43,039 nucleotides of DNA, taken from Gammaproteobacteria bacterium (lineage in GTDB: Bacteria; Pseudomonadota; Gammaproteobacteria; Burkholderiales; Sulfuricellaceae). The notes under the pieces were generated by a model. It did no database searches, was not told where the DNA came from, and saw nothing but the letters and a program-made list of their open reading frames with translations. The translations under genes were made by a program, and so were the position numbers. Of the stretch, positions 3,185 through 19,261 are shown piece after piece. The stretch is taken from NCBI GenBank assembly GCA_018824405.1, contig JAHJGO010000019.1, forward strand, positions 1 to 43,039, written 5' to 3'. How positions within the stretch are numbered: the first letter of the stretch is position 1; each line of letters begins with the position of its first letter.

Positions 3185-3961
3185 TTGCTTTTAACTATTA
3201 AACTTTTTTTGGCGAGGTTCGGTTGCAGCGTGCAGCGCTTCTTGATCCGATTCTTTGACAAAAGCTTGAGTTCAAGCCTTTTGCACATTTCGCCAAGAGC
3301 AAGGGTGCTCTTAATTTGGGTAGTTGCTTTTATTTTCATCGCTCCTGGCGTGGCAGATCGGCTAGACCTGTCCGACAAAGTGCTGGCGTTTGTTGAAAAA
3401 AAATACGGGGCTCCTGCCCTCAAACGCGTGACCGACTGGAAACGCCTGATGGAAAACAGTCGCAACAAGTCAGAATCAGAAAAACTGGAACTGGTTAATC
3501 AGTTTTTCAACCAGACACCATTTGTTTCAGACATGGAACACTGGGGCAAGGAAGATTACTGGGCCACACCGATTGAAATGTTGGCAACCAGTGGTGGTGA
3601 CTGCGAAGATTTTGCCATTGGCAAATATTTTACGCTGGTACAAATGGGCGTACCGATCAAGAAATTGCAGATCACTTACGTGAAGGCGATGAACTGGAAC
3701 CCAATCAACCAGGCGCATATGGTACTGGCCTACTATCAGACACCCGATGCCATCCCCAACATACTGGATAACCTGATCCCGGAAATCAAGCCTGCCACTC
3801 GACGCAAGGACCTTACCCCAGTTTACAGTTTCAATGGTGACGGACTGTGGTTGGCCAAGGAACGCGGCTTGGGGAAAAACGTTGGTGGGTCGAGCCGGAT
3901 CAAGTTGTGGACGGATCTTAGCAGCCGGATGGGGAAAGAAACTGATGACCAACATCCCTAA
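3185..3961 (+). CDS. lapG: LapG-type periplasmic cysteine protease (bacterial transglutaminase-like)
   Basis: A 258-residue protein with a membrane segment near residues 40-56 (VLLIWVVAFIFIAPG) acting as signal/anchor, then the bacterial transglutaminase-like cysteine protease fold. The catalytic triad is visible: Cys140 in SGGDCEDFAI, His178 in NQAHMVL and Asp195 in NILDNL. Known LapG enzymes cut the N-terminal retention module of LapA-type adhesins, releasing them from the outer membrane, and are inhibited by binding to LapD, encoded 51 bases downstream. The start is uncertain: TTG 3185 with GTGAGG just upstream gives an N-terminus longer than typical LapG, and no ATG is available before the membrane segment. 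Lies 87 bases behind lapE. Confidence 0.92.
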   Translation: MLLTIKLFLARFGCSVQRFLIRFFDKSLSSSLLHISPRARVLLIWVVAFIFIAPGVADRLDLSDKVLAFVEKKYGAPALKRVTDWKRLMENSRNKSESEKLELVNQFFNQTPFVSDMEHWGKEDYWATPIEMLATSGGDCEDFAIGKYFTLVQMGVPIKKLQITYVKAMNWNPINQAHMVLAYYQTPDAIPNILDNLIPEIKPATRRKDLTPVYSFNGDGLWLAKERGLGKNVGGSSRIKLWTDLSSRMGKETDDQHP

Positions 3962-4012: not shown

Positions 4013-5971
4013 ATGACCCTGTTTCGTCAGTTGATCATCATCATTACCACTTTATTCCTGGTGGTTTTTCTGGGGACCTTCATCGTCAGTGTCAATAACA
4101 CCCGAGTCTTTCTCTCCAGCCAGCTACAGTCTCACGCCCAGGACGCTGCTACCTCGCTGGGTCTGTCGATATCTCCCCATGCCGCCAGCAATGACCTGAT
4201 TACCATGAGATCCATGGTAGATGCCATGTTCGATAGCGGCTACTACCGTGAAATCATTGTCGTTGACATCAATGGCAATCCATTGGTTGAGCGCAAGCTT
4301 CCCGTCACCATTGAAGAGGTACCACAGTGGTTTATCAATTTAGTGCCTCTTGAAACCCCCTTGGGAGAGGCCTTGGTCATGGCCGGTTGGCAACAGGCTG
4401 GAATGGTTAATGTACGCAGCAATCCGGGCATCGCCTATGCCAAGTTATGGCGCGACAGCATTGGCATGTTCTGGTGGCTTTTTGGCGCCGCGATTATCAC
4501 ACTCGGCTTGGGCTGGATTATTCTGAAAATTGTGCTGCGCCCCCTGCGCAATCTGGAAATTCAGGCAGAAGCCATTTGCCGGCGAGAATATCCGGTACAA
4601 GAGAAAATGCCCTGGACTCGAGAACTGCGCAGTTTTGTTCAGGCTATGAACCGCATGGTAACCAAGGTCAAGGAGATGTTCGAAGAACAGGCCCGCGCCA
4701 TGGAAAAAATGCGGGCACATGCCTATATGGATTCGGTAACAGGTCTAGGCAACCGGCGTCACCTTGAGGCTCAATTGCAAAACCTGATCAACAACCCGGA
4801 ACAATTTGCTGGAGGTGCGCTGTTCCTGCTGGAACTCAGGGGCTTCAAGGAATATAACGACCGTCGTGGTTATCAGGCTGGCGATGATCTTCTGCGCCAG
4901 GCAACCGTTCTGCTATCCAATATCAGCAACCCGCACCCTGACAGCTTCTGCGCACGTCTTGGCGGCGCTGACTTTGCCATGGTCATTCCCAACATTGATG
5001 CCACCGAAGCAGAAACAATTGGAAAACAACTGTCCGAATCCTTGCACCATTTGTATGAAGGTGGCATGACAGATTCAAGGGAAGTCGGCAATATTGGAAT
5101 CGCGCTCTACCGTGGGCAAGATTCCGTTTTCAAGTACCTGAGTGAAGCCGATTTGGCACTGCGGACTGCCCAGGCACAGGGAGGCAATGCCTGGCACCTG
5201 GAAAAACCCGAACAAAGCGCGCAGACTGAAATAGCAGGCGCGCAAAACTGGTCCACATTCCTCAATGAAGTCATCGCCAAACGACGCATTACCCTGCTAT
5301 TTCAGCCTGTTAAATGCTGTGTTTCGGAAAAAATCCTGCACTACGAAGTCTTGCTGCGTCTCATGGGAAATAACGAACAACTATTGAGTGCAGGCGTGTT
5401 CATGCCTTACGTCAACCGACTCGGCCTGCATCGCGAAATGGACCGATTAGTGGTAAGCGAAGTGATTGAACGCATGAAGCTTGATCACACCAGAGACATC
5501 CCTGCCATTGCCATCAACCTCTCGCCGGAGTCCGCACATGACGCGGCATTTTCTGACTGGTTATACGGGGAACTCAAAAAAAACCCGGACATCGCCAGCA
5601 AGCTAATCTTTGAAGTGACTGAATATGGCGCCACAAAAAATCTTGATTCAATACGGAGCCTGATCGACACGGTAAGTCTTGCCGGCGCCAAGTTCTCCCT
5701 CGATCACTTCGGCCGCGGGTTTAGATCATTCGGCTACCTCAGCAGCCTGAAAATTCATTATCTGAAAGTGGACGGCAGCTACATTCATGGCATCGACCAG
5801 GACAAGGACGACCAATTTTTTGTCGACGCTGTGATCAAAATCGCTCACGGCCTGGATATCGAGGTCATAGCCGAGTCTGTGGAAACGCGCGAAGAATGGA
5901 AAATGCTACAGGAACTCAATGTTTACGGCCTGCAAGGATATCTGGTCGGCGAACCGGCGGATCTGTTGTAG
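4013..5971 (+). CDS. lapD: LapD-type inner-membrane c-di-GMP receptor with degenerate GGDEF and EAL domains
   Basis: A 652-residue protein: TM1 at about 7-26, periplasmic LapD/MoxY N-terminal domain (27-152) with Trp126 in GWQQAG matching the LapG-binding tryptophan of Pseudomonas LapD, TM2 at 153-175, HAMP, then GGDEF and EAL domains. The GGDEF signature is LGGADF (316-321) and the EAL signature is YEVLLRL (444-450). The diguanylate cyclase site is clearly broken and the phosphodiesterase site probably altered, as expected for a receptor that binds c-di-GMP through its EAL domain and passes the state outward to sequester LapG. ATG 4013 has GAGGATA upstream. It follows lapG in the same direction and is followed after 51 bases by the accessory cluster without any visible terminator, so the two may share transcripts. 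Confidence 0.93.
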   Translation: MTLFRQLIIIITTLFLVVFLGTFIVSVNNTRVFLSSQLQSHAQDAATSLGLSISPHAASNDLITMRSMVDAMFDSGYYREIIVVDINGNPLVERKLPVTIEEVPQWFINLVPLETPLGEALVMAGWQQAGMVNVRSNPGIAYAKLWRDSIGMFWWLFGAAIITLGLGWIILKIVLRPLRNLEIQAEAICRREYPVQEKMPWTRELRSFVQAMNRMVTKVKEMFEEQARAMEKMRAHAYMDSVTGLGNRRHLEAQLQNLINNPEQFAGGALFLLELRGFKEYNDRRGYQAGDDLLRQATVLLSNISNPHPDSFCARLGGADFAMVIPNIDATEAETIGKQLSESLHHLYEGGMTDSREVGNIGIALYRGQDSVFKYLSEADLALRTAQAQGGNAWHLEKPEQSAQTEIAGAQNWSTFLNEVIAKRRITLLFQPVKCCVSEKILHYEVLLRLMGNNEQLLSAGVFMPYVNRLGLHREMDRLVVSEVIERMKLDHTRDIPAIAINLSPESAHDAAFSDWLYGELKKNPDIASKLIFEVTEYGATKNLDSIRSLIDTVSLAGAKFSLDHFGRGFRSFGYLSSLKIHYLKVDGSYIHGIDQDKDDQFFVDAVIKIAHGLDIEVIAESVETREEWKMLQELNVYGLQGYLVGEPADLL

Positions 5972-6022: not shown

Positions 6023-8458
6023 ATGGGTGTCATCAAGAAAATTCTGTATCGCGGCAACATCCTGGGCAGGCCTCGCCATCGGAACCTGTTCCTCGATATG
6101 GAAGAAAATATCCATATTCATTACCGCGATCTTCGCATCGAACTGAGCCGTGACGAGTTCGAGGAAATTGCGGGTGCTTTTCAAAAACAATCTCAGGAAC
6201 TACAGGCCATCATCCAGAAAAAAAACTATCAGGATGGAAAATTGCCAAATGCCAACCAGGAGGATGTACGGATCTGGACCGAATCGAGCCTCAAGCATGA
6301 GGTGAAATATCATCCCCAACGTTTTTCCATGGAGGAATGCGGAGACGGCTACCACTTCCACTACCGGAATCTCAAGATACTGATCGACCGAGCCGAATTC
6401 AGGCAAATTGCTCAAGCATTCAAATCAATGGACGTGGACGGCCCCTACGCGGCCAGTTACGACGAAGTGCTCACGTTGCTGGAGGCCAACGAGGTGGATT
6501 TTATCCTGGCTTCCGGAAATATACCCGGAGAGATATTAAGCATCAGCATCGCCCGGCATCATCTCCCAAAACTCAATAGCATTTTCGAATATATCGGATT
6601 CACGGCGGAAACGCAGGATAAGGAACGATATTATCGGGGATCACTGCTCACAGTAGTAGCCAGGGTGGAAAGCCATCTTGCGGCTCTGGATTTCAAGCGC
6701 ATTCGGGCTCAGAAAGAAATCAGGCAACTGGCGGAATACCTATCCCAGGAAGGAGCGGCACTCGACCCCAATGAACTGAACCACATCAAGTGCCAGGTAG
6801 TGGATTATTATTCCGCCATCAGATCAGGCCAGGTACGGAATTTCGAAACCGATCCGCAACTATGGCTTTATGCTCCAGCCAACAAGCAGGTCGTTTTCCC
6901 CTACAATGCATCCGGGCTAGCAGACAGAAGCGATGCAGAAAAGATGTACCGCACGTGGAGCATGCTGCTGTCCAGTCTAAAGCTGGGTTTCGTCAAACCT
7001 AGCAAGATCATATTCACAACGCCTGAGCAAAATCGATTACAGGAACAGATCGATGAAGTCTTACGCAAGGAGATCGCCAGCGTTAATGCGGTCGATCGAA
7101 TTTTCATCATGGGCTCTGCATCGCGACAGGCCATGGGGTGGTACAAGACACCCTTTGTACACGGAAAACTTGTCAAGCTCGGTTCGGACGTGGACATTCT
7201 GGTCGAGATCAATCAAGGGAGAGAAGGCGACATCCCTGACAGCTGGCATTGCATCAACCCTGTCGCCTCCAACCATTGCGCCGTCTACCATCTTGGCCAG
7301 ATCCCTCTATCCGGTGGAGCGGAAGCGTGGGCAAAGCAATATCCAAATGTGGAATTCACCCACCACCTGATCGACGCTTATGTTTTCTTCCCTTCCAGAG
7401 GTTATCAGGAGGAAAAGGACGCCTTCCTGCATAAATTTGGCGCTCGAATTTACTATGATCGCTTACGTGATGGCCTCATCCCGCGCGATGCGGAACTAGA
7501 AGAATTAACCGGCCAGATTGCACAGTTTTATCCACTTGAGCAGATTGCTGTTGAAAAAATGACGGTCTCCACGCAAAACGCCCTTTATCGTGTAGCAGCG
7601 GGTCAGGACAATTACGTTCTCAAGCTGTTCAAAGTCTCGGGCAATTACCGCCGAAAACGAATTGCAGCGCATGCCGAATACGAGGCCAAGCTGGTCATGC
7701 ACCTGCGACAACATAACATCCCCACTGCCGGCATCATTCCCACCCGCACAGGAAGCCTTGCGGAAATATCTGGCTTTCCGGCATTGCTCTTTGAACGCCT
7801 CACCGGCACCGTCTGCAGTCGCCCGGAATACCCGCTCGACCGGATAGGCGCGGCCTTGGCAGCCATCCACCGGGTACAGATGGAACACCCCCTGGATTTT
7901 GCAGACACTTTTTCGTTCGAAGACACCTGCGCCATCTGGCTGCCACACTTCTATGCTTACGCAAAAAATGAGCAGCTCAGCGCCATGCTCGCAAAGACAT
8001 TCGCTCAACTGAAGCCCCTCGCTGACCGATTCAAGCACCCGACTGATCGCACCACGCTACTCTCGCGCAGCATTTGCGTCCATAACCATGGCGACGTCAC
8101 CCCCAAGAATGTGATGATCGACACAAGCGGGGAAGTGCAATTTTTTGATTTTAATAACGCTTTTTTCGGCCCTCGACTGGCCGACGTGATGGACGGGGGA
8201 TTTGAGTTCTCCTTGGCCGAAAAATATATTGAAGCTGTGGATTTCAGTCGATTCGACCAATTTCTCAAGCAGTATTCCAGGTTCTACCCGTTCACTTCGG
8301 CTGAGTATGAAGATCTGCCTCACTGGATAGCATTCGTGGGAATTATTAAATTCACCAAGGAAGTAAGGGTGCTGCTTGAAAACAGCAGCGAGAGTCTGCG
8401 AGAGCGGCGAGCACTGGCTATCGCGAATTTCGTTCTGACGCGCTCCGAAATCCATTAA
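6023..8458 (+). CDS. Nucleotidyltransferase-fold / APH-type phosphotransferase fusion with duplicated N-terminal motif
   Basis: An 811-residue protein not recognised as a named family. Residues 31-53 and 111-133 hold two copies of one motif (HIHYRDLRIELSRDEF and HFHYRNLKILIDRAEF). Residues 355-460 look like a nucleotidyltransferase fold: MGSASRQA (363-370) followed by GSDVDILVEI (387-396), where Asp389 and Asp391 fit the metal-binding DxD, and a further acidic candidate at Asp451. Residues 510-760 are an aminoglycoside/choline-kinase-like phosphotransferase: Lys534 (YVLKLF), HGDVTPKN (689-696) and the DFG-equivalent FFDFNN (707-712). Both catalytic centres look intact. The protein has no signal peptide. 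It opens the cluster behind lapD, and the next gene starts 26 bases later. Substrates are unknown; transfer of nucleotidyl and phosphoryl groups to a small molecule, sugar or protein is inferred from the folds only. Confidence 0.8.
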   Translation: MGVIKKILYRGNILGRPRHRNLFLDMEENIHIHYRDLRIELSRDEFEEIAGAFQKQSQELQAIIQKKNYQDGKLPNANQEDVRIWTESSLKHEVKYHPQRFSMEECGDGYHFHYRNLKILIDRAEFRQIAQAFKSMDVDGPYAASYDEVLTLLEANEVDFILASGNIPGEILSISIARHHLPKLNSIFEYIGFTAETQDKERYYRGSLLTVVARVESHLAALDFKRIRAQKEIRQLAEYLSQEGAALDPNELNHIKCQVVDYYSAIRSGQVRNFETDPQLWLYAPANKQVVFPYNASGLADRSDAEKMYRTWSMLLSSLKLGFVKPSKIIFTTPEQNRLQEQIDEVLRKEIASVNAVDRIFIMGSASRQAMGWYKTPFVHGKLVKLGSDVDILVEINQGREGDIPDSWHCINPVASNHCAVYHLGQIPLSGGAEAWAKQYPNVEFTHHLIDAYVFFPSRGYQEEKDAFLHKFGARIYYDRLRDGLIPRDAELEELTGQIAQFYPLEQIAVEKMTVSTQNALYRVAAGQDNYVLKLFKVSGNYRRKRIAAHAEYEAKLVMHLRQHNIPTAGIIPTRTGSLAEISGFPALLFERLTGTVCSRPEYPLDRIGAALAAIHRVQMEHPLDFADTFSFEDTCAIWLPHFYAYAKNEQLSAMLAKTFAQLKPLADRFKHPTDRTTLLSRSICVHNHGDVTPKNVMIDTSGEVQFFDFNNAFFGPRLADVMDGGFEFSLAEKYIEAVDFSRFDQFLKQYSRFYPFTSAEYEDLPHWIAFVGIIKFTKEVRVLLENSSESLRERRALAIANFVLTRSEIH

Positions 8459-8484
8459 GTACCGCACGACTGCGGCTGGATATT

Positions 8485-10359
8485 ATGAAAAACAATTTCA
8501 TCTCGGCAGAAACATCTGCCATCAAGAGCGCGGATCAACAGCCATTCATGGCGCCGGAAAAACAAGAACCCGGTTATCAGCCCAACCCGCTCGACTATAG
8601 TTTTCTTCAGTCCGTATCGAAAGCCATCCGGAATTGCACCGAGACAATTTCAGACAGTGTGAAACTAGAACCTGATTTTGCACAAACGTCCTTCCCAAAG
8701 CATTTTGAACGCCTGACACTCGTGCTGTATGCGCCTGGCCACAAGCGCATTCTGGTCAGCCGCCAGACACACAGCTTTTCCGAGGTATTCGAGCGTTTAC
8801 TGTTGCACCCTCGTACACCTGCACTAGGCAGGGAACCCTTTCGCCTTCAAATGGATTTCATACTCGCGCCCCCCTCCCCTGCCGATTTCTACTCGGTGGG
8901 CACTGAACAAGAGGGCGAACGTCATTTCGAGATCGGCATCGACGGCCTGCTGATTCATGGGCCTGATAACATGGTGCATCTCTTCTTGCCCGGTGATGCC
9001 TATGTGCGCTCCATCATGGGCATGCGGCAGTTGCGTGACTATCTGACCAGAGCTTACGGTGAGGATTATCTGCGGCAAGCCGGATTCGAGCGCTTCCGCT
9101 CGGAAAGTTTCATATCCGGGGAAAAAGACTGGTTGCAACTGTACCGGGGATACCCGCTGGTGGGGCCTTTGACCAGGCAAAAAATCGAACAGGCCGTAGA
9201 ACTGGCCGTGGGCCACATCCTGCTGAACCAGGAAAAGAGTGGCAAATTTCTCTACTATTACGATGCCTCCCTTGATTCCCGTCGCGACCACGAGCATCCC
9301 ACGCGCGACCCGCTCACGAACCCTTATTACAACATCCTGCGCCATTCCGGAGGCGCCCTTACCTGTATTTACCACGAGAAATGCACCCATCGTGGCAACG
9401 CCCTGGATAGCATACGCAACGCCATCGGCTACCTGCTAAAACAGGCGCGGACCTATGACTGCAATGGGATCGAAGGCGCATACATCTACAGCGAAAGAAA
9501 AGCCAAACTGGGCGGCTCGGGTGTGGCGCTCTACCTGCTCGCGGAATACCAGCGCCTTACGGGCGACACGCAATATCAGGAATGGGCACACCGGCTCGCC
9601 CGGCATTTGCTAAGCCAGATCACTGCCAGCGGTGAATTCATCTATTACAGCATCTACCTCGACCAACCGGTCACCGAACAGGAAAATCACGAATACTTCT
9701 CTTTCTATTACCCAGGCGAAGCCATTTGCGGCCTGGCGAAATACTATCCTCTCGCCAGCGCCGAGGATCAGCGCATGATCACAGGAAAGCTCCACAAGGC
9801 ACTGGAATTCCTGATCGAGGTTCGACCTGTGACCCGCGCCCAGCACTACACTTCTCCGCCATCGGATGCATGGCTGATGATGGGTATCAAGGAATTATGG
9901 GACATCGAGGCAATGCGCAAGCCACAGTATGCCGAGTTCGTATTCTCCGATGCCCGCAAGATGGTCGACCACATGTACAAGGTCACCGATGCGCCCTGTC
10001 CGGACTATGCCGGCGCCTTCTACTACACATACGGCGACTACCCCTACGCGGATGGCGCCCGCTGCGAAGGACTGCTCGGCGCATATGAACTTGCCCTCAA
10101 AATCGGCGACCAAGACAAAGCACGCCAGATCTGGGATGCGCTTCGTTTGGCGGCATGGTCAGTGTTGCATTTGGTCAATACAGAAGATGCAATTTATTTT
10201 GCGCCCAACCCCAGAGTTGCCTTGGGAGGGATACGCTTCAAGTACACGCGCCAATGGTTCCGTATCGACACCATTCAGCATGTCGCCTCTTTTTTTGCAA
10301 AACTGCTGCCCTATTGGGAATCAGCCGAGGCAAATTCCGTTTCCACCGGGCGGAAGTGA
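8485..10359 (+). CDS. AMMECR1-like domain fused to an alpha-helical barrel (glycosidase/epimerase-like)
   Basis: A 624-residue protein without signal peptide. After a divergent N-terminus, residues about 75-215 resemble the AMMECR1 domain (EIGIDGLLIHGPDNMVHLF, then FLPGDAYV and AGFERFRSESF); this match is by eye and moderate. Residues about 230-610 have the rhythm of an (alpha/alpha) barrel like that of six-hairpin glycosidases and of the D-glucuronyl C5-epimerase C-terminal domain: GGSGVALYLLAEYQRLTGD, FSFYYPGEAICGLAKYY, RCEGLLGAYELALKIGD. Several conserved-looking Tyr, Glu and Asp residues line these segments, but I cannot name a catalytic pair. It lies 26 bases after the NTase/kinase gene and 7 bases before the Ser/Thr kinase gene, so the three are probably co-translated. 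A role in processing a carbohydrate or glycopeptide is possible but unproven. Confidence 0.72.
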   Translation: MKNNFISAETSAIKSADQQPFMAPEKQEPGYQPNPLDYSFLQSVSKAIRNCTETISDSVKLEPDFAQTSFPKHFERLTLVLYAPGHKRILVSRQTHSFSEVFERLLLHPRTPALGREPFRLQMDFILAPPSPADFYSVGTEQEGERHFEIGIDGLLIHGPDNMVHLFLPGDAYVRSIMGMRQLRDYLTRAYGEDYLRQAGFERFRSESFISGEKDWLQLYRGYPLVGPLTRQKIEQAVELAVGHILLNQEKSGKFLYYYDASLDSRRDHEHPTRDPLTNPYYNILRHSGGALTCIYHEKCTHRGNALDSIRNAIGYLLKQARTYDCNGIEGAYIYSERKAKLGGSGVALYLLAEYQRLTGDTQYQEWAHRLARHLLSQITASGEFIYYSIYLDQPVTEQENHEYFSFYYPGEAICGLAKYYPLASAEDQRMITGKLHKALEFLIEVRPVTRAQHYTSPPSDAWLMMGIKELWDIEAMRKPQYAEFVFSDARKMVDHMYKVTDAPCPDYAGAFYYTYGDYPYADGARCEGLLGAYELALKIGDQDKARQIWDALRLAAWSVLHLVNTEDAIYFAPNPRVALGGIRFKYTRQWFRIDTIQHVASFFAKLLPYWESAEANSVSTGRK

Positions 10360-10366
10360 GTCCGCG

Positions 10367-11770
10367 ATGATACGCGCGCTCGGGGCATGGCGATTTGACC
10401 CGGCTGAGCGCCTGGGTGGGGGTGGGTATGCGCAAGCCTATCTCTGCCGCAATCCGGCGCTGCATCCGGAACAATGTGCGATCAAGATATTCGACGATCC
10501 CTATTACGCCAACACTTTCGAACGCGAGCTTGCGGCACTGCAGGTCGTGCGTGGATGTCCCGGTACGCTGGCCATCGTGGATCATGGGCGTGACGCCACC
10601 GGGCGGCTATGCATTGTGACCGAACTTGTGCCCGGCACGCGCCTGGACAAGCTCATCAGAAAAAGCGGCGCAATTAACAAATTGCAGTTACGAATGATAC
10701 TGGAGCAATTGCTCCCGGTACTGCAGCATGCGCACAGCCACGGCTGGCTGCACAAGGACATCAAGGCGTCCAACATACTCTTCGACGGGTCCAGCGCCAC
10801 TCTCATTGACTGGGGCGTTGCCGAACCTGTGGGTGATGGTCGGGCAGAATCAATACGTGCCAAGCAGGACTATGTCGCACCAGAGTGTTTCGCCGGGCGC
10901 CACGGCATCGCAACCGATTTTTATTCGCTGGGATGGTTCATCGTCGAAGCGCTGACCGGGGCGCGCCCGTATCATTTCTCGACCAACCGCGAGCGTGACT
11001 ACAGGGTTTCCGCGCATTGCCTTGAACACCCGGAACTGCCTGAATCATTGCCTGATGCGTGGCGACCGCTGGTACTCGCTTGGATTGCCAGGAACCCTGC
11101 TCAGCGCCTCGTGGGTTATGAACTTGAAAACCTTCTTGCGCGCGCCGCAACACACGTGACGACAGACATTAACGACTCCGTCGCTCACAGCGACCTGGGG
11201 TGCCAGTATGGCTATCTGGAACAGGTAGCGCATGCCGGCGTGCCCTATGCGCAGCATAAAATGGCGTTGCGACAACTCGAGGCCGGGCATCATGCAGAGG
11301 CATTTCACTGGCTGGAATGTGCGGCTGCATCTGGATATGCAACGGCGGCGTTTCGCCTTGCCCGCATACTGAGCAAGGGAGAAATCTGCGCCGCTGCACC
11401 AGAGCGGGCGCAGCAGTTGCTGGAAGCTGCCGCCGGCGCCGGAAACTCTGCAGCTCGTTACCGGTTGGCCAGGCAGCTTTTCGAAACGGGGCAGGCGAAC
11501 GAGGCTCTGAGCTGGCTCAAACAGGCCGCGGACGCAGGTTATGCGCGAGCCCAGTATGAGTACGCACGGCGGGTTGAAACTGGCGCCGATGATCTTGCCG
11601 TGGTGGTTACCTATCTCGGCATGGCCGCCGATCGAGGCCATGCGAATGCGCAGGCGCACCTGATGCACCTCAAGTCGCACCACCCTGATCTGCCCGAATT
11701 ATTGTCCGTATGGCCCTTCTGGGAACATTTCGACCCCCCCCCCGCACCACTTGATCTGGAGGTCTCGTGA
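10367..11770 (+). CDS. Serine/threonine protein kinase with C-terminal Sel1-like repeats
   Basis: A 467-residue protein. The Hanks-type kinase domain (1 to about 255) is complete: GGGGYAQAYL glycine loop, Lys40 (CAIKIF), a Glu in the helix-C region (FERELAAL), HKDIKASN (129-136), metal-binding DWG at 148-150, APE at 171-173 and Asp184. The C-terminal half (about 275-430) is a series of Sel1/TPR-like helical pairs (AFHWLECAAASGYATAAF, ALSWLKQAADAGYARAQY), usually protein-protein interaction surfaces. No transmembrane helix is visible, so the kinase is likely cytosolic. I chose ATG 10367, seven bases after the preceding stop; the longer open frame from 9929 overlaps the previous gene by 430 bases and lacks kinase homology there. 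The stop overlaps the GTG of the next gene by 4 bases, indicating translational coupling to the ligase genes and hence a shared pathway. Confidence 0.88.
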   Translation: MIRALGAWRFDPAERLGGGGYAQAYLCRNPALHPEQCAIKIFDDPYYANTFERELAALQVVRGCPGTLAIVDHGRDATGRLCIVTELVPGTRLDKLIRKSGAINKLQLRMILEQLLPVLQHAHSHGWLHKDIKASNILFDGSSATLIDWGVAEPVGDGRAESIRAKQDYVAPECFAGRHGIATDFYSLGWFIVEALTGARPYHFSTNRERDYRVSAHCLEHPELPESLPDAWRPLVLAWIARNPAQRLVGYELENLLARAATHVTTDINDSVAHSDLGCQYGYLEQVAHAGVPYAQHKMALRQLEAGHHAEAFHWLECAAASGYATAAFRLARILSKGEICAAAPERAQQLLEAAAGAGNSAARYRLARQLFETGQANEALSWLKQAADAGYARAQYEYARRVETGADDLAVVVTYLGMAADRGHANAQAHLMHLKSHHPDLPELLSVWPFWEHFDPPPAPLDLEVS

Positions 11771-14205
11771 AGCTGCACGCACGCCAATACCTCAGTGGCC
11801 CAAACATAGGCGCCAGTTTTCGCGCCGTTCGCTGGGTGCTCGAAGATGCGCTCCTGCCCTTGCCTGACGCTGGCGAGATTGACTCACGCGCCCGCAATTT
11901 GTTTACCTCAGTGACAGGCACCCATCCTGAAATCGGCAGCGACATTTCGACAAATCAGGCTGTTCTGGCCATGAAATACGCCCTGGCATTGCAACTAGCC
12001 CACCACCACCCGGTCTCGAAAGCCAGGCTCCATCCGCTTGAGCAGGGACGCTGCGAGCTTGTCATAGAAGTCGCAAAAGCCGGTATCGCCACCGCGCTTC
12101 TCGATTGCACATTCGCGCTGATTGATGAAGTATGCGGCAGCGCCAAACCTGGCACGTTTGCGCATGTCTGCGAGAAGCATGCGCAGCGACTGCGCTTCGG
12201 CCTGACCCATACTTATCTGCATGACCGTCTGAAAGTTGCACGGCGTCTGGGTGTACCCGCGTGGTACGAGGGTGCGCGGCGCTTTATGTTTTTCGGCGAT
12301 GGTTGTTATGCTCGCCTGACTTCGGGCGGACATACCGACAAAACGTCAGTTCTGAGTACCCAGCTTGAGCATGACAAGGCACGTGCATCACGCCGCCTTG
12401 CTGCATGCGGATTACCGGCGGCACCGCAGAAACTGGTAAGCGATGCCGAAAGTGCGGTATCAGCGGCGCACCTCATTGGTTTTCCGGTTGTTCTCAAACC
12501 GCGCTGGGGCAAACAGGGACAGGGTGTAGCCGTCAATCTGGGGAGCGATAATCAGGTCCGTGCCGCTTACGCTGCGGCACGCGAATTCAACCGCGATGTC
12601 GTGGTCGAGCGCTTTCTGGCCGGAGACAGTTACCGGTTGCTGTCGATCAACGGGCGCTTTGTTGCAGCGGTCAAAACGCTGCCGCCACAGGTCTGCGGAG
12701 ATGGAACCCGAAGTTTGCGGATACTCATCGATGCTGCGAACCGAAATGAACGGCGCGACGGGGTTCTGCTCAATCCCATCGAAATCGATGCCGAACTGCG
12801 CCACTCGCTTGAAGCGCGCGGACTGGATCTCGACGCCATTCCCGGCACGGGCGAGATCGTCGTACTGCGTGGAACTGCAAATCAGGCCATAGGCGGCACC
12901 ACGGTCGATGTAACTGATGACGTACACCTCGATAACCAGGAAATGGCGGCGGCAGCGGCGCATGCGTGTATGCTTGATATTGCCGGGCTGGATTTTGTGA
13001 CGACCGACATCGGCCGCTCGTGGCGCGATGGAGTGGGAGGCATCGTCGAAGTGAATGGCGGACCGGCCTTCGATCTGCACATGTTGCCAACCGTGGGCAA
13101 GCCTCGTGACGTGTCCTGGCATTTGATCCGTGCAGTGCGGCCCGCGAGCAGTCCAGGCACGGTGCCGCGATTCATGGTCGCCGGTCGTTATGGCAAAAAG
13201 AGTGTTGCAGCCCGTCTCGTTGAGCTTTTGTCATGTGTGGGATTCACACCCGGGTTGTTGGCGAAGAAGGAGGTGACGGTCAAAGACACAACATCAGAGT
13301 TCGATGACGTGGACGATGCTGCCGAGGCGGTATTTACCCGTCCCGATGTCGACGCAGTGGTGGTCGAGCAGTCGCTTGGAGCGCTGTGCGAATCAGGCAG
13401 TCTGGTTGAGCGCTACGCAGTCGCAGTGCTGACCGATGCGGGTGGCGACACTACTGCGCTGGAAGTAGCGTTAGGCGACAGCACTGCTGGCGAACGAGTA
13501 GTGGAGCTGGCAGTTTGGCTTGCGAGTGTGGTCGTGATCGATGCGGCATATGCAGATCTGCATGCACGGGTGGCAGAGCTGCCACCACAGCAAAAGGGTT
13601 ATATATGGGTGGCAAAAGCAGATTCGGAACAGGTGGATGCTCACGTCGCCGCGGGAGGGTGGGCAGTAGTGCGCGCGCAGCGTGACGGCACTGGCTGGCT
13701 TGAGTGGCGTCAGAATGAGCAACGCGTGGCGTTGATGCCGATCATGGAGGATGGAGAAGCTCAAATTCGCGACGATGCATTTGCGGCGGCGGCGCTGATT
13801 GGAGCGGGACATCGACCCGAAGCGGTTGCGGCGGTGCTTGGGGGCGATCAGACCAATATGATCCAGCCGGTGTGGCCTGCGGATGAACTGGAATCGGTTT
13901 TTGTCGGGGCATGGATCAACCGCCCGGGTCCAGGCTGGCACCTTGGCAAAGTCGTATTAGGAGTCGATGCGGTGGTGCCGGGCTCGGTCTCCGTGATCGC
14001 CGGCCCGCCCGACGATCTTGCTGCATGCGCGCAACTCGAAGCAGAGGTGCGCGATGCGTTTGCACGCGGGGCAAGCGCCGTAATAGCGCCACTGGTGCCG
14101 GACGATCTGCCGCGCTGGCGACCGGTGCTGGTGTGCGACGATCCTGCCGCCGGCTATGCGCGACTGACGGCAGGCGTCGCCGAAGCTGTTGTATCGCTCG
14201 ATTGA
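11767..14205 (+). CDS. Cyanophycin-synthetase-like ATP-grasp ligase with degenerate Mur domain, copy 1
   Basis: An 812-residue protein built like CphA in its first half. Residues 1 to about 170 resemble the CphA N domain (YLSGPN near the start). Residues about 200-455 are an ATP-grasp domain with Lys244 in VVLKPRWGKQGQGV, GGTTVDVTDDVHLDN and the Mg-binding EVN (428-430). The following Mur-ligase-like part is broken: the P-loop GTNGKTT of CphA reads GRYGKKS (473-479), and the TN.GEDH motif reads TDAGGD. The last 100 residues resemble the N-terminal UDP-binding domain of MurE/MurF (VLGVDAVVPGS, FARGASAVIAP, PVLVCDDPAAGYARL), not the Mur C-terminal domain. So one ATP-dependent amide ligation should remain and the second is unlikely; the product is not expected to be cyanophycin. 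GTG 11767 overlaps the kinase stop. A paralogue follows at once. Confidence 0.83.
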   Translation: MKLHARQYLSGPNIGASFRAVRWVLEDALLPLPDAGEIDSRARNLFTSVTGTHPEIGSDISTNQAVLAMKYALALQLAHHHPVSKARLHPLEQGRCELVIEVAKAGIATALLDCTFALIDEVCGSAKPGTFAHVCEKHAQRLRFGLTHTYLHDRLKVARRLGVPAWYEGARRFMFFGDGCYARLTSGGHTDKTSVLSTQLEHDKARASRRLAACGLPAAPQKLVSDAESAVSAAHLIGFPVVLKPRWGKQGQGVAVNLGSDNQVRAAYAAAREFNRDVVVERFLAGDSYRLLSINGRFVAAVKTLPPQVCGDGTRSLRILIDAANRNERRDGVLLNPIEIDAELRHSLEARGLDLDAIPGTGEIVVLRGTANQAIGGTTVDVTDDVHLDNQEMAAAAAHACMLDIAGLDFVTTDIGRSWRDGVGGIVEVNGGPAFDLHMLPTVGKPRDVSWHLIRAVRPASSPGTVPRFMVAGRYGKKSVAARLVELLSCVGFTPGLLAKKEVTVKDTTSEFDDVDDAAEAVFTRPDVDAVVVEQSLGALCESGSLVERYAVAVLTDAGGDTTALEVALGDSTAGERVVELAVWLASVVVIDAAYADLHARVAELPPQQKGYIWVAKADSEQVDAHVAAGGWAVVRAQRDGTGWLEWRQNEQRVALMPIMEDGEAQIRDDAFAAAALIGAGHRPEAVAAVLGGDQTNMIQPVWPADELESVFVGAWINRPGPGWHLGKVVLGVDAVVPGSVSVIAGPPDDLAACAQLEAEVRDAFARGASAVIAPLVPDDLPRWRPVLVCDDPAAGYARLTAGVAEAVVSLD
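13995..14168 (+). repeat. 3' homogenised tract, copy 1 (pairs with 16471-16644)
   Basis: About 174 bases at the 3' end of the first ligase gene differ from 16471-16644 at only about seven positions by eye, five of them synonymous, whereas the bodies of the two genes are strongly diverged. Confidence 0.85.
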
Positions 14206-14215
14206 GGTGGTACAT

Positions 14216-16678
14216 ATGACTACAACAATACTTGCAGCAAACTACTACAGTGGCCCGAGCATTGTCGGAGCTTATCGGGCGGCGCGCTGGGTCGTTGCAA
14301 CCACGATCGAATCGCAGCATGACGTGAGCCGAACATACGCGCATGCACAAGCGCTTTTCACAGAGGTGGTAGGTATCGCGCCAGCCATGGGTGCCGAGCC
14401 GCCTGCTGGGGCGGGCGAGTTGGTGCTGAGCTTTGCGCTTGCCTTGCAGCATGCCCACTACCATCCCGTGTCAAAGGGGGAAGTTCGGCCACTTGATGGA
14501 GAGCAGTTTGAAGTCGGGGTCGAGGTGATCAAGGACGCCATCGTCACCCCGCTTGCCGAGTGCGTGTGTGCCCTGATCGATGAAGCATCAGAGTTTGTTC
14601 CAGAGGGCACGTTTTCCCGCGTCTGGAATGAACACCGGAATGATCTTGGTTTCGACCTCACCGATGTTTTCCTGCACGACCGCCGGACCGTGGCAAGGCG
14701 TATTGGCGTGCCGGTGTGGTACGACGGTGCGCGCCGTCAGTTCTTCGGAGATGGATGCAATGCCTGTCTAACTTCACCGGGCAAGACGGCTGCGACTTCG
14801 CGTCTGGGAAGCGACATGTCCGGCGACAAGCAGCGTACCTATCGGCGCCTTGCGGCGTGTGCACTTCCCGCACCGCGCCAGATCGACGCCGATGATGCCG
14901 ATGAAGCGGTTGCGGCGGCGCAGCGCATCGGCTATCCGGTGGTCCTCAAACCGCGCTGGGGCAAACAGGGGCGCGGGGTAACGACGAATCTGACAAACGA
15001 AACCGAAATACGCGCCGCCTATGCCGAAGCATCCAGGTTTGGAAGCAATGCGGTGGTCGAACAGTTTGTTGAGGGCGCGGATTATCGCCTGCTGGTCATC
15101 AACGGGCGTTTCGTTGCCGCGGTCAAACGCGTACCGGCACGCGTGACCGGCGATGGCTGCCAGAGTGTGCAGGCCCTTATCGATGAATCTAACCGCCGCG
15201 ACCGCCGCGACAGTGTGTGGCTGTTCCCCTTGCATGTTGATCAGGAAATGTTAGGCACTTTGGCGGCCCAGGGACTGGGGTTAGGCTATGTACCGCAAGC
15301 GGGCGAGACGGTGCAATTGCGACGGGTTGCAAACCAGTCGATAGGCGGCACGACAATCGACGTAACCGACGAGGTGCACCCCGATAACCGCATGATGGCG
15401 GTTGCCGCAGCACGCGCCTGTCTGCTCGATCTTGCCGGGCTGGATTTCATGACTACCGATATCAGCCGCTCATGGCGTGAGGGCGGCGCAGCGATTATCG
15501 AGATCAATTCCGGTCCGGGTATCGACCTGCACATGCTGACGACCAAGGGCAAACCACGCGATGTGTCCTGGCATCTCATCCGTACGGGTCGGCCCGCGCG
15601 TGCACCCGGTATCGTTCCGCGCTTCATGGTCACCGGAGAGGGTGCACGGCATGGGGTGAGTGTAAGGATTGCGGCCCTGATGCAGCGCCTCGGGTTCAAC
15701 ACTGGGGTGCTGAGCGGGCCGGGCTTCACGGTCGGGGAGCGCGAACTGATCATGGACAGCCCTGTGGAAGCGGCCGAGACCCTGTTCAGCCTGCCTGACG
15801 TGGATGCAGTGGTGGTCGAGCAGTCGCTCAGAGATCTGGCCGAGTCAGGCAGCCTAGTTGAGCGTTATACCGTCGCGGTGCTGACTGATGCGGGCGACGA
15901 CAGCTTGGCGCTTGAGAGCTTGCTGTGCGACAGCAATGCAGGCGAGCGAATCGGCGATCTGACGGTATGGCTTGCGAGTGTGACGGTAATCAATGCCGCG
16001 TATGCGGAACTGCGAAAACGGGTGGCGGCTTTGCCACCCCAGCAGGCGGGCTATGTGTGGCTGGATGAAGCGGATTTGGCCGAGGTGGATATGCACATCG
16101 CTGCGGGCGGTTGGGCGATGGTGCGTGTTCAGCGCGAAGGTGTCGACTGGCTTGAGTGGCGCCAGAATGAGCAGCGTGTGTCGCTGATGCCACTTGAGGA
16201 CAATGCTGAAAACAACGCGTTTGCAGCGGCGGCATTAATCGGTGCCGGGCATAGGCCTGAAACGGTGGCGATAGTGTTGCAGGGGAAAACCGTTGCGGTG
16301 CCTGTGACGCTGGCTGAGCGCGGACTGGACGGTACTGTGCAGCCGGCCTGGCCTGTGGATGAACTGGAATCGATTTTTGACGGGGCATGGATCAACCGCC
16401 CGGGGCCGGGCTGGCAAATTGGAAAAATTGTGTTCGGTATCAATGCGGTGGTGCAAGGGTCGGTCGCCGTGATCGCCGGTCCACCCGACGATCTTGCTGC
16501 ATGCGCGCAACTTGAAGCAGAGATGCGCGATGCATTTGCACGCGGGGCAAGCGCCGTAATAGCGCCACTGGTACCGGACAATCTGCCGCGCTGGCGACCG
16601 GTGCTGGTGTGCGACGATCCTGCCGCCGGCTATGCGCGACTGACAGGGAATGCTCTCTCCGTCGTGCAACAGGATTGA
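14216..16678 (+). CDS. Cyanophycin-synthetase-like ATP-grasp ligase with degenerate Mur domain, copy 2
   Basis: An 820-residue paralogue of the preceding protein with the same domain order. The ATP-grasp core is kept (VVLKPRWGKQGRGV, GGTTIDVTDEVHPDN, IIEINSGPGIDLHM), while the Mur P-loop position reads GEGARHG, even further from GTNGKTT than in copy 1, and the catalytic DH is absent (TDAGDD). The C-terminal MurE/F-N-like domain is almost identical in DNA to copy 1 although the rest is clearly diverged. ATG 14216 is preceded by GAGGTGG at good spacing; the open frame extends nine codons upstream to 14189 into the end of copy 1, which I reject as the start. Ten bases separate the genes. Two diverged copies suggest a heteromeric ligase or two successive additions with different amino acids, by analogy with tandem CphA and Mur enzymes; this is inference. 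Confidence 0.83.
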   Translation: MTTTILAANYYSGPSIVGAYRAARWVVATTIESQHDVSRTYAHAQALFTEVVGIAPAMGAEPPAGAGELVLSFALALQHAHYHPVSKGEVRPLDGEQFEVGVEVIKDAIVTPLAECVCALIDEASEFVPEGTFSRVWNEHRNDLGFDLTDVFLHDRRTVARRIGVPVWYDGARRQFFGDGCNACLTSPGKTAATSRLGSDMSGDKQRTYRRLAACALPAPRQIDADDADEAVAAAQRIGYPVVLKPRWGKQGRGVTTNLTNETEIRAAYAEASRFGSNAVVEQFVEGADYRLLVINGRFVAAVKRVPARVTGDGCQSVQALIDESNRRDRRDSVWLFPLHVDQEMLGTLAAQGLGLGYVPQAGETVQLRRVANQSIGGTTIDVTDEVHPDNRMMAVAAARACLLDLAGLDFMTTDISRSWREGGAAIIEINSGPGIDLHMLTTKGKPRDVSWHLIRTGRPARAPGIVPRFMVTGEGARHGVSVRIAALMQRLGFNTGVLSGPGFTVGERELIMDSPVEAAETLFSLPDVDAVVVEQSLRDLAESGSLVERYTVAVLTDAGDDSLALESLLCDSNAGERIGDLTVWLASVTVINAAYAELRKRVAALPPQQAGYVWLDEADLAEVDMHIAAGGWAMVRVQREGVDWLEWRQNEQRVSLMPLEDNAENNAFAAAALIGAGHRPETVAIVLQGKTVAVPVTLAERGLDGTVQPAWPVDELESIFDGAWINRPGPGWQIGKIVFGINAVVQGSVAVIAGPPDDLAACAQLEAEMRDAFARGASAVIAPLVPDNLPRWRPVLVCDDPAAGYARLTGNALSVVQQD
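16471..16644 (+). repeat. 3' homogenised tract, copy 2 (pairs with 13995-14168)
   Basis: Direct-repeat partner of the tract in the first ligase gene, offset by 2476 bases. It covers the MurE/F-N-like C-terminal domain and points to recent gene conversion or strong selection on this module. Confidence 0.85.
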
Positions 16679-16738
16679 ACCAAACCCGGCCTGATTGGCC
16701 GAAAAAGGACAATGGTTTTTGTCCGTTAGAGGTGTGTG

Positions 16739-17722
16739 ATGATATTCGGCTTGCAGCACAAGAGAACGCTGATCGGTCTGGCGATCGGTTTGCTGGTGTT
16801 CGCTTCGGGATCATCGGCGGACTGGAAGAGCGGGCGTGAAGCGCTCGACCAGCGCCATGTTCAGGGGATATTCAGGATGTACTACACCCTGCAAGGTGAG
16901 CATGCTCTCATTACCGGATCAAACGAGCGCCAAAAGAATCAGGATGGCGCAGCAGCACTGGTCGCGCAGATAGGCCAGAAGCTGCAGAACGCAGATTACT
17001 TCTATTCGCAAACGCTGGGGCTGACCCATCCCATGCAGTCTCTGCGCTATGCACCGTTGAATCTTCGCTATGTCGATGTGCACATGTTGCGTATGGAGGA
17101 CAAGAAGGGATCGACTGGCGACGAAGTGATCACCTACAAGTATCGAAGGTTCAAGGACTGGGCTCCGGCCATGACCATCAGCATTTCATCCGATTGGCGA
17201 CCACCCGGCCTGACACCCGAACACGAGGTATTCCACACTTATCAGTACAGCTACACTCACTTCAAGAACGCCTGGTACCTCGAAGGCATGGCACGTGCCA
17301 TGGAACCGGCGTTTAACGACCGGACCTACCAGACTGAAACTCTGCCCACCAAACCTGCGGAACTGGATAAACTGCTTACTCGCACCTACAGCGCTTCGCG
17401 ATTTTGGAGCCGCATGATGGCACTGTGCGATCCCGAATGTGTTGCCTCATGGGATGGCAAGTATTTCAAAAGCACGGGACAGATGTGCGGCGGCAGTTTC
17501 GTCAAGGCAGTGCTGGAGGAATTTCAGGCAGCGGATCCCCTCGCCGCGAAATCGCGTGGCATCGCCCCAAACGACTGGCCCGAAAGCGAGCAGTGGTCCA
17601 GCGGCAACAACACATGGATGCTGGGCAGTGTAGGACGTGCCATGGACAGGCAGTGCCCGGTTGTGAGCAACTCCGAGCTGGGACGTTTTCGTGCATTATT
17701 GACAACCGCTACCGGAAAGTAG
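16739..17722 (+). CDS. Secreted HExxH metallopeptidase-like protein
   Basis: A 327-residue protein with an N-terminal signal peptide (basic KR at 8-9, hydrophobic LIGLAIGLLVFASG, cleavage around SSA-DW at 27-28). The zinc motif HEVFH is at 162-166 and a probable third ligand, Glu182, lies in WYLEGMAR, the usual spacing type of gluzincins. Four cysteines in the C-terminal half could form disulfides (CDPEC, MCGGS). It is the last plus-strand gene of the cluster, 60 bases after the second ligase gene, with AGAGG upstream of ATG 16739 (an in-frame GTG lies one codon earlier). It would act in the periplasm or outside. A role in cutting a peptide-like product or a surface protein of the cluster is a guess from position. 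I cannot place it in a named peptidase family. Confidence 0.75.
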   Translation: MIFGLQHKRTLIGLAIGLLVFASGSSADWKSGREALDQRHVQGIFRMYYTLQGEHALITGSNERQKNQDGAAALVAQIGQKLQNADYFYSQTLGLTHPMQSLRYAPLNLRYVDVHMLRMEDKKGSTGDEVITYKYRRFKDWAPAMTISISSDWRPPGLTPEHEVFHTYQYSYTHFKNAWYLEGMARAMEPAFNDRTYQTETLPTKPAELDKLLTRTYSASRFWSRMMALCDPECVASWDGKYFKSTGQMCGGSFVKAVLEEFQAADPLAAKSRGIAPNDWPESEQWSSGNNTWMLGSVGRAMDRQCPVVSNSELGRFRALLTTATGK

Positions 17723-17795: not shown

Positions 17796-19070
17796 TTATC
17801 GCTTCACATCAGCAACAAGAGCTGAAATAGTGGTTTCAGCCAAATTCAGGAAGTCATTGAGTATGACCTTTTCTCCACGCCGGACTTGAACGAGATTCCG
17901 TAATTTCTGCGACAGGGTGTCATCCCTCAGCAAAATATCGTCCTCAGCTTCCGACGTGTCAAATTCTTTCAAAGCGCTCCGACAGGCGACGCCAAGAGCC
18001 GTCATTGCAGAAAGCTCGTTTGTGTCATTGATCACACCCACCTGCCCGATGTCGGACCATGCATTGCCTGCGCCGATGTCGGATAGATGGGTAATGGCAC
18101 TCAGGCGTAGATAGGAAAAAAGCGCCCTGGAGTCAATTGCGTCAAAATCACGCGGCACCCTGAATGCTCGCATGCCATTCCGCTCTACCCCGAGATTTTT
18201 TGCATCTTCAAAACAGGGGTGATCAGGCCCCATAGGCGGTAGCGCTATCTCGGCCACATTATCCGGACAGCCTTCAAGGCAAAAACCAAAATAGGCCAAC
18301 GTATAGCCACTACATTTGCGCCAATAACTGATGGTCAATGCTTCGTTGATTTCAATATTCTTCACCGCACTGAAAAAAAACCCTCTTGACGATTCCGACC
18401 CCCAAAGCGCATTTGGACTGGCCGAGTGATCCAGCATGTCGGCAAGCGGGATTAATGCATTAGTTTTGACCCCAGAAATTTTTACCGTGAATGTGCGAGT
18501 GAAATAGATACACTTCCCCCACGCGTACTCCTCGCGCATAAAAATTTTTTCCTTCGGCAAACAGGATCTCAATTGCTCATATTCGTAGGCAAGTCGGTTT
18601 CTGCGTCTACGGATGATGCGCAGGACATAGGATCCTTTCAGGTATTCAAGGTCCGGTTCTGTCAAGAAATCCGGATGATCCGGAAAACTATTTGGCAGAA
18701 CATTGAGATAGGGATCCCAGAAACTGCTCTGACGCTTCATACCAGCCAAATGCGCTGCCATATAGCCGGCATCTGAAATGTCGCAATTTGAAGCAGCGAT
18801 CAAGCGGCCAATTTCTGACGCCTTGGCATCTTCCGTTGTAATGAATAAATGCTTAGGAATATGCATTATCAGAGAACCCGCCTTGATAGGTGCAGAAGCT
18901 CGCGCTTCACGCCACCCCGGTCCGGTTTCAATTTTTGCCGAGGGGAAAGTGGCGCCCTGCTCTTCCAGCCAGGCAATCAGATTCCGCATTTTGATTTTTT
19001 CCGAGTCAATGCTGGCGAGATCGCCGTCGTATGGAAAAGAATCGGCTGGAACCTGTATGTTTTCAGTCAT
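17796..19070 (-). CDS. SET-domain protein of the SETD3/SETD6/Rubisco-LSMT type
   Basis: A 424-residue protein. The SET core is recognised from ALIPLADMLDHSASPNALW (205-223), EALTISYWRKCSGYTLAYFGF (243-263) and an N-terminal half with an iSET-like helical insert; the C-terminal 150 residues fit the Rubisco-LSMT substrate-binding domain. Such enzymes methylate lysine or histidine in proteins. Some conserved positions differ: the usual DMLNHS reads DMLDHS (Asp214 for Asn), ISYG reads ISYW, and YGF reads FGF, while Tyr249 is kept. Activity may be altered or lost. ATG 19070 has AAGGAAAAAG upstream. It is transcribed toward the ligase cluster, and the convergent gap is 73 bases. The protein looks AT-richer in codon use than the ligase genes, suggesting separate acquisition. 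The target is unknown. Confidence 0.8.
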   Translation of the reverse strand: MTENIQVPADSFPYDGDLASIDSEKIKMRNLIAWLEEQGATFPSAKIETGPGWREARASAPIKAGSLIMHIPKHLFITTEDAKASEIGRLIAASNCDISDAGYMAAHLAGMKRQSSFWDPYLNVLPNSFPDHPDFLTEPDLEYLKGSYVLRIIRRRRNRLAYEYEQLRSCLPKEKIFMREEYAWGKCIYFTRTFTVKISGVKTNALIPLADMLDHSASPNALWGSESSRGFFFSAVKNIEINEALTISYWRKCSGYTLAYFGFCLEGCPDNVAEIALPPMGPDHPCFEDAKNLGVERNGMRAFRVPRDFDAIDSRALFSYLRLSAITHLSDIGAGNAWSDIGQVGVINDTNELSAMTALGVACRSALKEFDTSEAEDDILLRDDTLSQKLRNLVQVRRGEKVILNDFLNLAETTISALVADVKR

Positions 19071-19261
19071 CTTTTTCCTTATGAATCGGCCCGCTCCCCA
19101 ACTTGTGTTCCAGCAAGCAGTGACCAGCCCGTTGATAATTCAATGGATAGACTACCAAAAAATGCCGTGGTTAGGGCCACAGCCTCAGTATCAATCTGAA
19201 AAGCCCCCTGCCTCAACCGTCATTTACCGCCATCTGCTTAACGAAATCAGGCCACAAATCA

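Follow-up and report, generated by a model that had tools for sequence, protein, structure and literature searches.

A gene cluster beside a probable LapA-type adhesin end whose enzymes may modify an alternating-aspartate repeat

What could bring together, in one run of genes, a phosphotransferase-like protein, a sugar-enzyme-like barrel, a protein kinase, two ligases resembling cyanophycin synthetase (CphA) and a metallopeptidase? This question is raised by contig JAHJGO010000019.1 (assembly GCA_018824405.1) of a Gammaproteobacteria bacterium of the Sulfuricellaceae, a stretch of 43,039 nucleotides that we call the window and that is one whole contig of its source genome (C28; genomes, contigs and loci carry G, C and L numbers below). 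The six genes lie on the + strand between positions 6023 and 17722 with gaps of 26, 7, -4, 10 and 60 bases, exactly as in an earlier note on this DNA, which took them for a pathway that ligates amino acids to a peptide, glycan or protein and proposed recurrence without lap genes as a check. We find that they probably belong to a LapA-type adhesin locus, in which cytoplasmic enzymes would modify the alternating-Asp repeat of the adhesin before its export.

The border of the run lies further upstream than was first drawn. Gene 1 is preceded on the same strand by genes for a LapE-like, TolC-type outer membrane protein (1766-3097, named by similarity to genes of related loci and not by a family scan), the periplasmic cysteine protease LapG (3185-3961) and the cyclic di-GMP (c-di-GMP) receptor LapD (4013-5971); LapG and LapD are 51 bases apart, and so are LapD and gene 1. 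Family domains score above their cut-offs in both (Peptidase_C93 in LapG, 57 against 27 bits; LapD_MoxY_N in LapD, 158 against 25 bits), while the NCBIfam models LapG (E 2.8e-68, 229 bits) and LapD (E 6.7e-181, 603 bits) stay under the equivalog cut-offs of 320 and 1020. The first base of the contig already lies within a 369-codon open frame, the C-terminal end of an adhesin: a 202-residue (DSDA)n tract with 50 DSDA units, cut by the contig start (1-606, +), is our proposed substrate and is followed by a stretch rich in (GGKEPE)n, a Gly-rich tail and the stop (607-1110, +). A terminator-like hairpin with a T run, seen by eye 3' of this gene (1122-1166, +), was not among the results of a hairpin scan with a loop limit of 8. 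The earlier note had overlooked both the LapD gene just before gene 1 and the tract at the contig start. Because the contig opens in a repeat adhesin end with lap genes after it, we read the cluster as the downstream part of an adhesin locus.

The association recurs in distant genomes, where it can be followed through gene 2 (8485-10359, +), the barrel gene. On plasmids, distant gene 2 homologues have genes for Mur ligases and for adhesins or secretion proteins beside them; a 7-row gene 2 profile matched 16 of 397 Pseudomonadota genomes, the source included, and a contig scan with the Variovorax barrel as its only query, hence biased to its kin, gave 44 loci. Alternating-Asp tracts, written (D-x)n and counted from 12 units upwards, were present in 35 of 69 barrel loci, many of them several hundred residues long and in hosts ranging from Enterobacteriaceae to staphylococci (the 69 are 68 distinct loci, L041 and L098 being one; L010 stands outside this count, L057 matches the barrel only weakly, and L058 did not match it in a later check). 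No tract was found in 13 regions from elsewhere in the profile-positive genomes, and not even six units in 40 LapG loci from genomes without a barrel-profile match, hand-picked from 96 LapG-positive genomes to sample different genera (Mur-type matches occur in one of these loci, L186). Where a fetched locus held both barrel and LapG, a tract was there in 17 of 17 cases; 16 of these 17 come from Enterobacteriaceae, and the nominal p of 7e-15 therefore overstates independence. Many family loci accompany LapG/LapD or type I secretion system (T1SS) genes and (D-x)n adhesins, and the window, with its barrel (8485-10359) and (D-x)n adhesin (1-606) in one locus, resembles in this the serine-aspartate repeat modification systems. 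A set separate from the lap genes was not supported, and a cluster independent of them was rejected, since the neighbourhoods include them.

The enzyme that accompanies the barrel varies with the repeat letter x. The partner of most classed barrels, either fused to them or encoded next door, is a MurF-type ligase or a GT4 glycosyltransferase, classes being assigned by Pfam or NCBIfam for some loci and by phmmer similarity to those for the rest; the GT4 partners scanned (L068, L070, L077, L082) had as best NCBIfam models, well under cut-off, SdgA or SdgB, the serine-aspartate repeat O-glycosyltransferases. From 36 tract-bearing loci (the 35 plus G578), ten had no classed partner of the MurF or GT4 type and were left out: L047, L055, L065, L079 (GT2), L085, L087, L088, L090 (YheCD ATP-grasp), L091 and the window. 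Among the first 26 classed loci, x was mostly Ala in 16/17 with MurF vs 1/9 with GT4 (p 4.9e-5), or 13/14 vs 1/5 when collapsed by genus (p 0.006). Four further loci, hand-picked from the list of gene 2 homologues after the rule had been seen (three Mur, one GT4), all agreed with it, which brings the 30 loci to 19/20 with MurF vs 1/10 with SdgA/B-like GT4 (p 6.7e-6); x was mostly Ser in nine of the latter ten. Both traits show five changes along the barrel tree, and four independent contrasts on well supported branches were concordant in three or four cases and opposite in none. Two Ignatzschineria barrels (L077 and L099) share 513 of 525 aligned residues, and both their partner and their repeat differ. 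Nearly pure (DA)n or (DG)n tracts offer only Asp side chains, and therefore a carboxylate-amine ligase makes chemical sense there.

Other partners were also seen: GT2 and N-acetylglucosamine (GlcNAc) transferases besides GT4, and YheC/D-like ATP-grasp domains (L048, L051, L090), which make a third class of partner or neighbour of the barrel. PGA_cap (CapA) domains are fused to the barrel, to MurF or to an SdgA-like glycosyltransferase at several loci (L098 at 9860-14737, L063, L064, L077 and others), and one Leclercia protein (L074, 5588-9061, -) combines MurF, D-Ala-D-Ala carboxypeptidase-type and PGA_cap domains. The PGA_cap proteins of L098 and L077 score with MslH, the peptide epimerase of lasso peptides (PMC10406935), at 5e-21 and 9e-23.

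A published anchor for the barrel family comes from Staphylococcus. According to passages of one study (PMC5230774), GtfC is a 538-aa protein encoded directly downstream of pls, for which CAZy did not predict a glycosyltransferase and whose nearest relatives are labelled 'poly(glycerol-phosphate) alpha-glucosyltransferase'; with the genes of strain 1061, Pls did not stain at all without GtfC, and full periodic acid-Schiff staining took both GtfC and GtfD. The barrel protein of L006 is also 538 aa long, its gene comes right after one named pls, and its label is that of these relatives. From this likeness in place, length and label, GtfC is likely a barrel-family protein, and so a relative of gene 2. 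At sdrF of S. epidermidis, a barrel gene comes next and then a convergent glycosyltransferase gene. The Mur ligase beside pls in L006 (9207-10937) is shorter and has no P-loop; longer copies with a P-loop occur in L200 and L202.

Domain names within the cluster were checked against Pfam and NCBIfam profiles, and the names first given to the genes held in part. Gene 1 (6023-8458, +) has an N-terminal region without assignment and an APH-type kinase (E 5.7e-18); the proposed nucleotidyltransferase part had no profile match in either collection, and in it a GS...DxD-like stretch is visible, which we take to be the nucleotidyltransferase motif. Gene 2 matched no Pfam family at E 0.1, which leaves its AMMECR1 label without support, but its predicted structure holds an (alpha/alpha) barrel at about residues 227-618, and fold matches spanning 227-617 lead to N-acylglucosamine 2-epimerase, cellobiose 2-epimerase and GH76 enzymes, from which it differs in its 10% identity and in an extra N-terminal region, modelled mostly at low confidence. 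Gene 3 (10367-11770, +) is a Ser/Thr protein kinase (Pkinase, E 1.5e-31) whose Sel1-like repeats fall under their cut-off (22.3 vs 30.7 bits). The twin genes 4 (11767-14205, +) and 5 (14216-16678, +), 60% identical, are indeed CphA-like (E 2.2e-105 and 6.9e-101), at 309 and 305 bits far under the cut-off of 850 of the NCBIfam equivalog TIGR02068. Each combines a CphA-type ATP-grasp domain with a degenerate Mur-like domain and a MurF N-domain-like tail, and their P-loop regions read AGRYGKKSV and TGEGARHGV where the solved homologue has TGTNGKTTC. They thus differ from CphA1 with its intact Mur site and fit a CphA2-like architecture, in which ATP-grasp is kept and the Mur site lost, though among their solved relatives 8fxh and 7ta5, which we take to be CphA2, are outscored by other cyanophycin synthase entries. 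Gene 6 (16739-17722, +) is a HExxH-type metallopeptidase, probably secreted by the signal-peptide-like look of its start (by eye); its match to the MXAN_6640 family is weak (E 7.2e-6, under cut-off), and it is 32% identical to a Variovorax copy. No glycosyltransferase family, and so no GT4 of the SdgA/SdgB/GtfD type, was found among genes 1-6 in Pfam or NCBIfam.

How far does the set itself recur? A close gene 2 was present in two of 300 genomes of the window's order, the source and G578 of another family. The G578 locus has the layout of the window with twin MurF in place of the twin CphA-like ligases and without gene 1: a T1SS gene, an adaptor, an adhesin of (DA)n, then (DSDA)n, with an RTX-like end, two MurF-type ligases, barrel, kinase-Sel1 and metallopeptidase, the last three 62%, 53% and 48% identical to those of the window. 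Genes 2, 3 and 6 also co-occur in G009, on a 4.8-kb contig that reads barrel, kinase, metallopeptidase, GlcNAc transferase; the protein at the end of this run (L010, 3-1409, -) is of the GlcNAc-transferase family (PF11397, E 3.3e-73). G011, inspected by eye, has the end of an RTX-like adhesin whose repeats differ, followed by barrel, metallopeptidases, PGA_cap-MurF and gene 1. Three of the genes thus recur together in G578 and G009; all six together were found in no other genome among those searched with gene 1 (397), gene 2 (61 and 300) and gene 5 (61), genes 3, 4 and 6 not having been searched genome-wide. Gene 1 occurs in six of 397 genomes, the source and five of one genus, whose copies (L129-L133) are 52-54% identical and adjoin a pept3-type metallopeptidase; at L132, T1SS-type genes lie a few kilobases from gene 1, and G094 has a barrel on another contig. 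Gene 1 is the least tied of the six and was not supported as a core member, the five other loci having no barrel or tract within the stretch that was fetched.

The front part of the window adhesin may lie on another contig of the same genome. C19 holds the best of eight ABC matches in the genome to a T1SS ATPase, LapB-like, and near it, by eye, genes resembling TolC and an adaptor as well as the N-terminus of a LapA-like adhesin, which runs off the contig end and contains a TAAG stretch that we take to be a LapG motif; C19 and C28 may plausibly be the two flanks of a single adhesin gene. In the source genome, a search with a piece of the G578 adhesin N-terminus gave no match, and a match on C24, by eye a coiled-coil-like protein, was rejected as the adhesin. 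Beside this LapA-like locus, at L199 2865-7597, lie by eye a filamentous-haemagglutinin-like protein and a partner. In 12 of the 17 frames that are whole within their locus, read from stop to stop, the tract begins 164-279 residues from the frame start; we take this as the cell-proximal side. In Pls the tract comes before the wall-anchor end, and in L055 before the C-terminal end of an autotransporter-looking protein; the rest are L050 and L079, whose frames are broken or hold N runs, and L100. The window tract, on the C-terminal side, is an exception to the N-terminal placement.

From the recurring neighbourhood, the gene order, the repeat tract, the folds and the correlation of partner with repeat, all shown here, we infer the substrate, the chemistry and the order of every step as follows. 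The products of genes 2-5, perhaps with gene 1, would modify the repeat tract in the cytoplasm, ahead of type I export or while it proceeds. The twin CphA-type ATP-grasp ligases (MurF-type elsewhere) would activate Asp side-chain carboxylates and join amino acids to Asp, the barrel may act on or with a sugar on the repeat, and the gene 3 kinase might phosphorylate Ser in DSD or serve as a regulator. Gene 6 and LapG would act outside the cytoplasm, and LapD would tie adhesin retention to c-di-GMP, in keeping with the usual roles of LapD and LapG. Of the pathway in the earlier note, the recurring set, the ligases, the sugar-enzyme-like barrel and a kinase, here probably acting on an exported protein, survive; its separation from the lap genes does not.

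Several observations weigh against a modified adhesin repeat. In the fetched stretches, 34 of the 69 barrel loci have no tract; these include many Variovorax loci or fusions and some fragments ending at contig edges. L092 and L102 (TolC-T1SS-HlyD-barrel-GT4) and L007 (T1SS) also have none, even with secretion genes present. The L129-L133 stretches around gene 1 contain neither barrel nor repeat adhesin. The partner rule has two exceptions, L050 (MurF, Ser) and L068 (GT4, Ala), and its sign test over the tree contrasts gives a median p of 0.125, fewer than six informative pairs being unable to reach 0.05. Genes 4 and 5 match neither Mur_ligase_M nor _C, nor any Pfam Mur domain, in the Pfam scan, and the MurF domains of L046 and L050 (Variovorax) and the short L006 copy have no P-loop pattern. 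The window adhesin is cut at the contig end, its join to the C19 N-terminus being a candidate link, and the set has no published biochemical product. Finally, the mass spectra of Pls placed N-acetylhexosamine on Ser-containing peptides, and the passages of that source mention no Asp modification (PMC5230774).

A rival idea is that the whole set is a glycosylation system, with sugars on Ser or as an Asp ester and ligases that amidate a uronic acid of the glycan and not the Asp of the protein. The GtfC/GtfD and SdgA/B precedents, the structural matches of the barrel to sugar epimerases and GH76, and the GT4, GT2 and GlcNAc-transferase partners speak for it, but nearly pure Asp-Ala and Asp-Gly tracts give almost no Ser for O-glycosylation and are usually partnered, in the case of Asp-Ala, by a MurF-type ligase and not by a glycosyltransferase; we consider it unlikely. 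Rather improbable, too, is that the ligases make a free or anchored poly-amino-acid, like cyanophycin or polyglutamate, for which the adhesin locus is only a neighbour or attachment site. The CphA-like sequences of genes 4 and 5 and the PGA_cap-MurF fusions of several relatives would suit such a polymer, as would an ordinary-looking cphA pair on C29 of the same genome, except that this pair could already cover cyanophycin. A polymer would also leave the change of partner enzyme with repeat composition unaccounted for, and PGA_cap need not mean a polymer, given that some of these domains also score with the peptide epimerase MslH.

It is very improbable that the enzymes and the adhesins are chance or phylogenetic neighbours, the enzymes having other substrates and merely sharing genomic islands with the adhesins. 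The enterobacterial skew of the barrel-LapG loci and the many barrel loci without a tract are what one would expect of it, yet the same association is found in Staphylococcus, Agrobacterium, Variovorax, Ignatzschineria, Pseudoxanthomonas and the window's order, across differing types of secretion, and both control sets had zero tracts.

The closest described systems are those of Pls with GtfC-GtfD and of SdgA-SdgB (PMC5230774, PMC7029136, PMC3794999 and PMC8561734), which share with the window an alternating-Asp adhesin followed by a barrel gene (GtfC, by the likeness above) and a partner enzyme. There the repeat tract is modified. Where those systems have a glycosyltransferase, the window has CphA-type ligases, a kinase and the gene 1 protein; where they have sortase, it has Lap control and probably type I secretion. 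Ala fills half of its x positions. The ATP-grasp domain of genes 4 and 5 aligns well with cyanophycin synthetase (PDB 7lgn, 7lgm, 8fxh; PMC9262961 and PMC9427784), an enzyme with an intact Mur-type domain and a Mur C-terminal domain, whereas the Mur-type domain of genes 4 and 5 is degenerate and its C-terminal domain absent, the MurF N-domain-like tail standing instead. In cyanophycin, every side chain of a poly-Asp backbone carries Arg; the window locus encodes a ribosomal Asp repeat protein, and the cphA pair lies elsewhere in the genome. With LapA-LapG-LapD the window shares LapG, LapD and the TolC-type partner, and its genome the LapA-like N-terminus, but it adds the barrel enzyme set; no barrel match was obtained in 40 of 40 other LapG loci. 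In searches of the open-licence PubMed Central literature, no paper came up that links a Mur ligase to an adhesin, to type I secretion or to serine-aspartate repeats, nor one with the repeat string, and wider searches there, judged by title and start of abstract, none that describes such a system. Serine-aspartate repeat glycosylation and LapA control are already known; if confirmed, the branch with ligases would amount to a new type of protein modification.

A bolder version, which we offer tentatively and at somewhat less than even odds, is a ribosomally templated analogue of cyanophycin, in which MurF- or CphA-type ligases would attach amino acids through isopeptide bonds to the side chain of each Asp, or of every second one, along hundreds of residues of the adhesin stalk, while PGA_cap/MslH-type epimerases, the sugar-fold barrel, kinases or glycosyltransferases would be interchangeable co-modifiers suited to x. 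If our reading of the locus is right, peptidoglycan- and cyanophycin-type ligases would have been recruited as protein-modifying enzymes for giant adhesins, which would account for a set of MurF-like, CphA-like and CapA-like proteins whose present names come from enzymes of the cell wall or of storage polymers, give GtfC relatives and a fold other than that of a glycosyltransferase, and let the repeat letters predict which modification each adhesin carries. Related enzyme sets beside repeat adhesins in very different bacteria point to an undescribed finishing route for bacterial surface proteins.

Some neighbouring genes deserve mention. Convergent with the cluster, the window encodes a SET-domain protein with a Rubisco LSMT substrate-binding domain (17796-19070, -). 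In Variovorax, an aspartyl/asparaginyl beta-hydroxylase-like gene lies near the metallopeptidase and barrel of L008 (4970-5728; PF05118, E 6e-6), and phmmer finds beta-hydroxylase-like genes in L059-L062 also. In L056, a frame that contains nearly pure poly-Asp stretches (18318-19799, -) stands near three barrel genes and a MurF/PGA_cap protein.

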